Shown here piece after piece: positions 36,804 to 39,670 of a stretch of 64,000 nucleotides of DNA (position 1 is the first letter of the stretch; every line of letters begins with the position of its first letter). Source of the DNA: an uncultured Planctomycetota bacterium (GTDB lineage Bacteria; Planctomycetota; Brocadiia; CAIUPP01); contig CAIUPP010000088.1 of the NCBI GenBank assembly GCA_903901045.1, positions 39,488 through 103,487 of the forward strand. Reading direction: 5' to 3'. The notes beneath the pieces are model-generated. The model did not search any database. It had not been told where the DNA came from and worked only from the letters and a program-made list of their open reading frames with translations. Position numbers and translations under genes: made by a program.

Positions 36804-36823
36804 GCAGCGCAACAACGGCAGGA

Positions 36824-36930
36824 ACCGCCGATGAACGCGGATGGACGCGGATACGGAAGCAGGCCCTGAACGGGTCGAGAAGAGTCCCCTTGTAGTCTCC
36901 ATCGGCGTCCATTTGCGTTCATCGGCGGTT
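36824..36930. repeat. Inverted pair of 26-bp intergenic repeats
   Basis: aaccgccgatgaacgcggatggacgc ... gcgtccatttgcgttcatcggcggtt. Confidence 0.75.
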
Positions 36931-37027
36931 TCCCACCCGCCGCCGTTCCCGGCTTCCCCCCACCGCTTTGCTTTTTCTGCGCCGTCCTATAGAATGCCCT
37001 TACTTGATCCACGGGACAGGAGGCGGC

Positions 37028-38563
37028 ATGCTCGCGAAGGTCATCAGCACGGGGACGTTCGGCATCGAGGCGTATCCGGTCGAGGTGGAGGTCAACGTCT
37101 CCAAGGTGGACTTCACCGGCACTGCGCTGGTCGGCCTGCCCGACGCCGCCGTCAAAGAGAGCCTGGAGCGCGTCCGAGCCGCCGTCACCAACAGCGGCTA
37201 CCATTTCCGCACGCACCGCATGACCATCAACCTCGCTCCCGCCGATATGCGCAAGGAAGGCCCTTCCTTCGACCTTCCCATCGCCGTGGCGATCCTCACC
37301 GCCTCCGAGCAAATCGTGGCCCCCAAGCTGGAGGAGTACGCCCTCACCGGCGAACTCGCGCTGGATGGCCGCCTGCGCCGCGTGAACGGCGCGCTCTCCA
37401 TGGCGCTGCGATGCCGCCAGGAGGGGCGACGCGGCATCATCCTCCCCGAGGAAAACGCCGAGGAGGCCGGCGTGGTCGAAGGGATCGAAGTCATTCCCCT
37501 GCGCACGCTCACCGAAGTCGTCGGCTTCCTCACCGACCACGTGGTGATGGAATCCTACCGGGTGGACCTCGCGCAGGCGCTGGGCGCCAGTTCACATTAC
37601 GAGGTGGACTTCAGCGAGGTGAAGGGGCAAGAGCACATCAAGCGCGCGCTCACCGTCGCCGCGGCGGGGGGACATAACGTCCTGATGATCGGCCCTCCCG
37701 GCGCGGGGAAATCCATGCTCGCGCAGCGCCTCCCCACCATCCTCCCCCCCATGACGATTGAGGAGGCGCTGGAAACGACGAAGGTCTACTCCGTGGATGG
37801 CCTCATGCGCGCGGGCCAGTCGCTCATCGCCACGCGCCCCTTCCGCGCGCCCCACCACACCGTCAGCGAAATCGGCCTGGCCGGCGGCGGCGCGGTGCCG
37901 AAGCCGGGCGAGGTGAGCCTGTCGCACCATGGTGTGCTCTTCCTGGACGAACTGCCGCAATTCGAACGGCGAACGCTGGAAGTGCTGCGCCAGCCGATGG
38001 AGGACGGGCACGTCACCATCAGCCGCGCACGCATGACCGTCACTTACCCCTCGCAATTCATGTTGATAGCCGCGCTGAATCCATGCCCCTGCGGCTACCT
38101 GACCGACCCAAAGAAGGAGTGCCATTGCAGCCCGCGGCAGGTGCAGGCGTACATGGGGCGGATCAGCGGGCCGCTGCTGGACCGCATCGACATTCAGGTG
38201 GAAGTGCCCGCCGTGAACTACCGCGACCTGCGCAACCCCGCCGAGGGTGAGCCCTCCTCCATCATCCGCGAGCGCGTCACCCGCGCCCGCGACCTCCAAC
38301 GCGCGCGGTTCAAAGATACGAAGACCTTCTGCAACGCCCGGATGAACAACCGCTTGCTCAAGAAGCACTGCAAAATCGACGGCCCCGCCGAGACCGTCCT
38401 TTCCAGCGCTATGCAAAGCTTCTCACTCTCGGCGCGGGCGTACACCAAGATACTCAAGCTCTCGCGGACGATTGCTGATTTGGATGGCGCGGAGGAGATA
38501 AGAACTGAGCATGTAACCGAGGCTATCCAGTACAGGAGTTTGGATAGGAATTTGTGGGCGTGA
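37028..38563 (+). CDS. comM: YifB/ComM family Mg-chelatase-like AAA ATPase
   Basis: MLAKVISTGTFGIEAYPVEVEVNVSK...GPPGAGKSMLAQRLPTILPPM; C-terminus SLSARAYTKILKLSRTIADLDG. Confidence 0.93.
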   Translation: MLAKVISTGTFGIEAYPVEVEVNVSKVDFTGTALVGLPDAAVKESLERVRAAVTNSGYHFRTHRMTINLAPADMRKEGPSFDLPIAVAILTASEQIVAPKLEEYALTGELALDGRLRRVNGALSMALRCRQEGRRGIILPEENAEEAGVVEGIEVIPLRTLTEVVGFLTDHVVMESYRVDLAQALGASSHYEVDFSEVKGQEHIKRALTVAAAGGHNVLMIGPPGAGKSMLAQRLPTILPPMTIEEALETTKVYSVDGLMRAGQSLIATRPFRAPHHTVSEIGLAGGGAVPKPGEVSLSHHGVLFLDELPQFERRTLEVLRQPMEDGHVTISRARMTVTYPSQFMLIAALNPCPCGYLTDPKKECHCSPRQVQAYMGRISGPLLDRIDIQVEVPAVNYRDLRNPAEGEPSSIIRERVTRARDLQRARFKDTKTFCNARMNNRLLKKHCKIDGPAETVLSSAMQSFSLSARAYTKILKLSRTIADLDGAEEIRTEHVTEAIQYRSLDRNLWA

Positions 38564-38565
38564 TT

Positions 38566-38618
38566 GTCGAAGGAATCGAGTCATTCGATTGAATCGACTC
38601 ATTCGACTCCTTCTCGAC
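38566..38618. repeat. Imperfect long palindrome directly after comM stop
   Basis: gtcgaaggaatcgagtcattcgattgaatcgactcattcgactccttctcgac. Confidence 0.75.
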
Positions 38619-38634
38619 AGAAAGTAGGCGAGCC

Positions 38635-39381
38635 ATGTTCGGTGGCACGGGCGGCTACTTCTGGCTCGATTCGTGGATTCTGGCCAATGTCGTGCAACTC
38701 GGAACTCAGAGATTCTGCGGATTGTTCTTGAACCGCACGAACGATCCTTGTGGGCGACAGTTCGACCAGATGAACCAGGCCGCACGGTCCGGGTGCGCCA
38801 ACATCGCGGAGGGATCGGCGCGCCGGGCGACTTCCAAAGAAACCGAAATGAAGCTGACGGACGTGGCGCGGTCAAGCCTGGCCGAACTTTCGGGCGACTA
38901 TCTGAACTGGCTCTTGCGGCAGGAGAAGGCACCGTGGGGAAAGAACAGCCCGGAAGCGAGAGCCGTGTACGCCGTCCGGTTGGAGAAGGCCGAGTACGGC
39001 GAGGACGTCGTTCATGACGCCTGCGCGCACATCCTGGCACAGAAACGGAAGTTCGCAAAGTGGCTGGAGTCTGGAAACGATGAAATCATGGCCAATGTCC
39101 TGCTGATCCTCATTGCCAGGGTGATCAACATGCTCAATCACCAGATGGAGACACAGGGCAGGACGTTCCAGAAAGAAGGCGGATTCCGCGAGAAGCTGAC
39201 GAGCCTGCGGGTGGATGCAAGAGCCAGGCAGGAAGCAGCCCCCCTGTGTCCGAAGTGCGGCAAACCAATGACCCGCCGCCGCGCCAAGAGCGGGAGGAAC
39301 GCAGGCAAGGACTTCTGGGGATGCACGGGATATCCCGAGTGCAAAGGGGTGAAGGTGATGCAGCAAGAGGCCGGTCAGTGA
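38635..39381 (+). CDS. Four-helix-bundle protein with C-terminal C4 topoisomerase-type zinc finger
   Basis: QMNQAARSGCANIAEGSARRATSKETEMKLTDVARSSLAELSGDYLNWLL; CPKCGKPMTRRRAKSGRNAGKDFWGCTGYPECKG. Confidence 0.85.
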   Translation: MFGGTGGYFWLDSWILANVVQLGTQRFCGLFLNRTNDPCGRQFDQMNQAARSGCANIAEGSARRATSKETEMKLTDVARSSLAELSGDYLNWLLRQEKAPWGKNSPEARAVYAVRLEKAEYGEDVVHDACAHILAQKRKFAKWLESGNDEIMANVLLILIARVINMLNHQMETQGRTFQKEGGFREKLTSLRVDARARQEAAPLCPKCGKPMTRRRAKSGRNAGKDFWGCTGYPECKGVKVMQQEAGQ

Positions 39382-39448
39382 TGGGAAGCGAGGAAAGGAA
39401 AGTGGGAGGCACGCATCGTTCGAATGACGCTTGGCTCACTCGGTGTGG

Positions 39449-39618
39449 CAATTCGCCCTTAGCGTCCGCGCCTACGGCAAGATCATCGAGCTTGTCCTGA
39501 GCCCGCCGATGGACTCTCCCGGACGCTTGTAGACTTGGATGGCGCGGAGAAAATCCGCACGGAGCATGTGACGGAGACGGTGCAGGTCCGAGGTCTGGAC
39601 AGGCATTTGCGGGCGTGA
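39449..39618 (+). pseudogene. Decayed second copy of comM 3' end
   Basis: QFALSVRAYGKIIEL then a ~20-nt interruption then SRTLVDLDGAEKIRTEHVTETVQVRGLDRHLRA*, matching the comM C-terminus. Confidence 0.85.
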
Positions 39619-39670
39619 CTCGTGCGCGCGCGGATGCGCATATTTCAGGAACATAGAAGGAGTTGGGGCG

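Follow-up and report, generated by a model that had tools for sequence, protein, structure and literature searches.

The 3' end of comM in this planctomycete genome is best described by a nested model, to which we assign a probability of roughly two in three: the tail of comM was swapped at a site that is a recurrent target in the class, and the cargo that now lies between the two tails, a gene for a four-helix-bundle (4HB) protein with its hairpin arrays, is a separate unit. By the window we mean the whole stretch of 64,000 nt of DNA that was analysed. In the following, tail 1 denotes the comM tail that is attached to the gene, and tail 2 denotes the copy that is stranded downstream (Table 1).

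Table 1. Features of the comM region, with positions counted from the first letter of the window
Feature	Position	Strand	Remarks
comM/yifB coding sequence	37028..38563	+	codons 1 to ~463 resident, tail incoming
Tail 1, replacement comM tail	38415..38563	+	~codons 463-511; left switch point approximate
5' hairpin array of the 4HB element, imperfect palindrome	38564..38617	.	TCGA cores every 9 nt
4HB gene, 248 aa: S23-like four-helix bundle, 4helix_suffix, C4 zinc ribbon	38635..39381	+	profile matches and model
Probable decayed 3' array (weak), ~67 nt	39382..39448	.	aligns to 3' arrays in L043 and L044
Tail 2, stranded native comM tail, frameshifted	39449..39618	+	105 nt at 75% to tail 1; host-like codons
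Dispersed repeat inserted in tail 2	39492..39515	.	~23 nt

The reading frame is a full-length YifB-type comM, which scores 624 bits against TIGR00368 and contains a complete Mg_chelatase_C domain (111.6 bits). The initial annotation had noticed a decayed second tail about 0.9 kb downstream, and the alignment bears this out: the last 35 codons of comM are copied again at 39514-39618, where 79 of 105 nt agree (blastn E 2.5e-16, tblastn E 6e-16). The upstream part of tail 2 (QFALSVRAYGKIIEL) begins at about 39449, an edge that is defined by weak similarity. The two parts are split by an insert, first estimated at about 20 nt, that shifts the frame and contains GTCCTGAGCCCGCCGATGGAC, a pattern with eight matches in the genome versus one for the reversed control pattern. 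This insert is a small dispersed repeat (GTCCTGAGC..GNCGANGGAC), and related copies are found elsewhere in the genome. Between the two tails lie an imperfect palindrome and the 4HB gene, which encodes a four-helix bundle with a zinc ribbon; it is the only gene there, and, as reported earlier, the interval contains no integrase. A further hairpin, with arms of 10-nt period (GATGAACGCGGATGGACGCGGAT...), is located just 5' of comM at 36822-36945. Its family has 49 matches in the genome, many of which are arm-sized, and its core is similar to a core within the C3 copy of the 4HB family (L038).

The same architecture is repeated in the class. Among 75 class genomes, six besides that of the window (G354, G362, G378, G432, G434, and G438) have a complete comM followed by a stranded tail 0.6-9 kb on and on the same strand, and stranded tails alone are found on separate contigs in G436 and G437. 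The cargoes at these swaps are mutually unrelated, and consist of a cold-shock gene (G362 and G438), a Y1 transposase and a HigB-type toxin (G432), DUF433 and an IS110 fragment (G354), an RHS-like gene (G434), and cytochrome and regulatory genes (G378). Since the tail-to-tail identity ranges from 77% to 95%, the events differ in age. Note that G362, G432, G434, G436, G437, and G438 all belong to one genus (g211) and that G432, G436, and G437 represent one common event, so that independent events are fewer than genomes. These cases show that insertions replacing the tail have hit the 3' end of comM repeatedly in the class, and they support the suggestion of the initial annotation that, in the window too, the tail was replaced by an insertion that kept comM intact, which is the best reading of the locus. 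Broken comM genes are also present in the class: the gene of G322 (L258) is cut at codon 241 and its tail resumes at codon 357, and that of G345 (L259) is without codons ~419-500.

In the window, the insertion probably proceeded as follows. DNA from a fairly close relative, comprising a comM 3' tail and the stretch downstream of it, would have entered the lineage near codon 464 of comM. With the new tail the comM frame would have been completed, and the resident tail would have been stranded behind the cargo and then decayed. The resident comM seems to have suffered no loss, and all of this fits an insertion near codon 464. The junctions at ~38415 and 39449 share no long identical core and are old and decayed; neither a recombinase nor a recognisable att core was found at the window junction.

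Elsewhere in the class, elements carrying a replacement tail may integrate site-specifically. This is suggested by three points taken together: a shared junction codon, an integrase remnant, and the literature. In G354 and G434, which belong to different families, the tails begin at the same PCPCG codon (~355), and in G322 the C-terminal fragment of a serine integrase (phrog_95 integrase, E 3.8e-6) abuts comM at the PCPCG codon. In the literature, magnesium chelatase/ATP-dependent protease, which is taken here to be the comM/YifB family, is the target of 12.4% of predicted site-specific LSRs (Durrant et al. 2022, PMC10083194). The class cases resemble these LSR elements in the target gene, in the position of the insertion inside the 3' half of comM, and in the integrase remnant at one junction codon. 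The window differs from them in that it has no integrase, in that its junction (codon ~464) is distinct from the PCPCG site and lies ~110 codons further downstream, and in that comM is restored by a replacement tail and not disrupted. The type of recombinase at comM is our inference.

Given that no integrase is left at the window itself, homologous single-crossover integration is just as possible there. The window event may thus have been plain homologous recombination, by integration of a circle through a single crossover or by one-sided recombination with transforming DNA, and the cargo would then be merely the neighbours of the donor comM. We place this alternative somewhat short of even odds. 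It agrees with the different cargo found every time, and also with the tails of G434 and G438, which are nearly identical next to the junction. In addition, a comM tail with the RHS-like gene behind it is found a second time in G434, on a different contig (L251 and L250), which speaks for homologous recombination and is also what would be expected if tail and cargo travel jointly. However, the alternative does not account well for the codon shared by G354 and G434, for the integrase fragment at that codon in G322, or for the standing of comM as a leading serine-integrase target (PMC10083194).

In the swap, whichever process brought it about, tail 1 is read as the incoming copy and tail 2 as the native one, as the initial annotation had proposed, and the pattern of divergence, the codon usage, and the synonymous states of a relative all point in this direction. 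The 26 differences in 105 nt are distributed over codon positions 1, 2, and 3 as 11/2/13, and dN/dS is 0.15 (dS 1.1, dN 0.17); this means that both tails were selected as comM ends while diverging, so both were working comM tails during most of their divergence. All 12 of the residue differences put tail 2 off the family consensus, which fits later decay.

The codons of the attached tail had been described as foreign-looking. In host codon usage, tail 1 indeed scores lower than any of the 35 gene ends in the window, tail 2 being unremarkable, and GC3 of the last 48 comM codons is lower than that of every 48-codon window of the comM body. This codon-bias evidence covers 34 codons, and the clear change within tail 1 starts only from codon ~482 on. 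A distant origin does not follow, as tail 1 is not distantly foreign at the protein level: it differs at 2 of 34 residues from the tail of G441, a genome of the same family as that of the window, whose comM is single-copy and 83% identical. At the synonymous differences, with sites sorted by codon, G441 agrees with tail 2 ten times and with tail 1 about four times. The divergence pattern and the codon usage indicate that the donor of tail 1 was a related organism and that tail 2 was functional until recently, and the simplest reading is that another member of the family contributed tail 1 and that tail 2, the resident tail, was displaced recently. The hosts of the closest 4HB genes (Lentisphaerae, Verrucomicrobia) were also considered as donors and rejected, their comM tails being no nearer to tail 1 than those of the class itself.

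A comM without any foreign DNA would result if the tail had been partially duplicated in situ, the 4HB unit had then been inserted, and the outer copy had decayed neutrally. Such a history would explain why the tail 1 protein matches the family consensus and the same-family relative, and why all of the residue differences leave tail 2 off consensus, as expected of decay. It fits worse than a swap, because the changes are too few for a decaying copy (simulated p 0.003-0.04 overall), both in amino acids (p 0.007-0.04) and at second codon positions (p 0.003-0.01). The excess of dS over dN and the occurrence of the odd codons in tail 1, not in tail 2, also count against it, and we regard an in situ duplication as improbable.

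We now turn to the cargo of the swap. The description of the 4HB gene as encoding a four-helix bundle with a C4 zinc finger agrees with profile searches: the protein exceeds the cut-offs of TIGR02436 (26.8 bits, cut-off 24) and of TIGR04258, '4helix_suffix' (61.6 bits, cut-off 40), and its C4 zinc ribbon is of the topoisomerase type (PF01396, 36.8 bits). PF05635 scores 26.2, below its cut-off of 33.8, and no match to Y1_Tnp was obtained in the profile search. The S23 fold is found with E 0.0063 in a profile search, and the predicted structure (pLDDT 85) has the S23-family protein 2gsc as its best PDB match, with a probability of 1.00 but an E value of only 9e-3. The gene is preceded by its own ribosome-binding site, which follows the 5' array.

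The 53-bp palindrome of the initial annotation corresponds to this 5' array; it is real, although not perfect. Positions 38566-38607 are 81% self-complementary versus a maximum of 63% in 3000 random 51-mers of the window, and, as an RNA hairpin, the palindrome is unexceptional when compared with dinucleotide shuffles (z -1.36). In its genome it is the sole array with four perfect TCGA-N5 units. On the 3' side (39382-39448), the array cores are mostly lost and no periodic array was detected. Arrays homologous to that of the window precede the 4HB gene in L043, L044, and L045.

For a broader view, we consider the 80 closest 4HB homologues, which come from Lentisphaerota, Verrucomicrobiota, Bacteroidota, Kiritimatiellota, Hydrogenedentota, Planctomycetota, and Spirochaetota. 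Arrays of at least 4 units with an 8-10-nt period are present in 48% of the upstream and 35% of the downstream flanks of the homologues, versus 1.2% of control windows drawn from these loci. In L047, for example, the upstream and downstream arrays are alike (95% over 92 nt). Some 4HB copies carry arrays inside the variable loop of the gene. In L021 (268-1305) and L036-L039, 9- or 10-nt repeat arrays lie within 4HB reading frames that are unbroken, and in L021 the array spans over 100 codons. GxxExxY (PF13366) genes were tried as carriers of the same arrays and rejected, a 4-unit array being present on either side in only 3 of 26 loci.

The 4-nt core of the arrays depends on the protein clade: it is TCGA in the clade of the window, GTCA in a clade distributed over five phyla, and of the GGAC and GATC types in others. 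With hand-assigned core labels, 14 changes are required on the protein tree versus a mean of 41 for shuffled labels. In an automatic test, protein distance is correlated with array similarity (Mantel r -0.55, p 0.0005; control regions r -0.01), and the correlation holds when only pairs from different phyla are used (r -0.64). The core thus tracks the protein clade, not the host phylum. Both the flanking by arrays and the co-variation between arrays and protein are established by these comparisons, and the co-variation could stem from joint inheritance rather than from binding.

The cargo is best explained as a separate unit, a gene between two hairpin arrays, of which the comM tail is not part. 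Inspection of the upstream genes and downstream flanks of the homologues, which had been proposed as a check, gave no sign of an association with comM: the loci are unrelated, and a tblastn search of comM against the 80 4HB loci hits only L083, 3.6 kb off and on the other strand. Nor is there a clear copy of the tail of the upstream gene beyond the 4HB gene in these loci, the matches being array-derived or marginal. A looser case is the 4HB copy of G256, which has multiple tail copies of its upstream gene. At this locus (L040), on the reverse strand, the tail of a restriction-modification-like gene (EEVRIIEEAGR) occurs four times between small genes including the 4HB gene and DUF433/DUF5615-like genes. 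The proposal of the initial annotation that the comM tail constitutes, together with the palindrome and the 4HB gene, a single mobile unit specific to comM and driven by the 4HB protein is very unlikely, since, although the tails of the window bracket exactly the array-4HB unit and little else and the G256 copy likewise lies between upstream-gene tail copies, comM adjoins none of the 80 homologues, comM swaps elsewhere hold other cargo, and the G256 tails also bracket the DUF433/DUF5615-like genes.

Three known systems resemble the 4HB unit in part. The first is the S23 gene of 23S rRNA intervening sequences (IVSs), such as that of Coxiella burnetii, which is also a small four-helix-bundle gene inside complementary repeats; in the Coxiella IVS, three heptamers are repeated in tandem immediately before the start codon (PMC4990558). 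The 4HB gene shares the tandem repeats just 5' of the start codon and the fold (2gsc), but it is located behind comM and not in 23S rRNA, its product has an additional suffix domain and zinc ribbon, and its arrays are multi-unit with a clade-specific core. The second is the REP/RAYT system (REPtrons; PMC2817692, PMC8266576), in which, as may be the case here, the gene of a nucleic-acid-binding protein lies between cognate hairpins. The hairpins flanking the 4HB gene co-vary with the protein, as in REPtrons, and gene-less hairpins of similar style are dispersed in the genome of the window; the difference is that the protein is an S23-like bundle without a Y1 (IS200-like) transposase domain. The third is the diversity-generating retroelement (DGR) with the four-helix bundle Avd, to which the bundle has a distant similarity (8ub7, weak) and which likewise would have a gene-tail repeat on both sides of the bundle gene. 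We rejected a DGR, with the tail as variable repeat and the bundle as Avd, since the differences show no adenine specificity (of 26, 5 fall at A in tail 2 and 10 at A in tail 1); in addition, no reverse transcriptase was recognised by eye among the neighbouring ORFs.

By analogy with RAYT proteins and REPs, the 4HB protein may recognise the core of its own arrays, and array-gene-array units may spread between genomes. In a more general form, which we put forward tentatively and consider possible but on the doubtful side, TIGR04258 genes and their clade-matched arrays would constitute an undescribed family of mobile elements with a partnership like that of REP and RAYT. The partner that recognises its own array core would here be no transposase but a zinc-ribbon bundle of the S23 type, and with the help of a host enzyme it would spread both arrays and whole array-gene-array units across six or more bacterial phyla. 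Among viral contigs, only one distant relative was found, and an empty-site comparison of 4HB elements in two genera of the class met flanks too divergent to read. Our literature search found no paper on TIGR04258 or on the pairing of arrays with a bundle protein; this pairing looks new, and the comM event is one of a known kind, an insertion at the comM hotspot, made unusual by the replacement tail that preserves the gene.

In the class, a known integration hotspot has been hit repeatedly with the gene kept alive by a replacement tail, and the stranded comM tails are a readable record of past insertions. The S23/4helix_suffix family gains a testable partner: because the hairpin core is particular to each protein clade, binding and specificity are directly assayable. 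The outcome of such assays would bear on how the intervening sequences of 23S rRNA, and bundle genes related to them, move.
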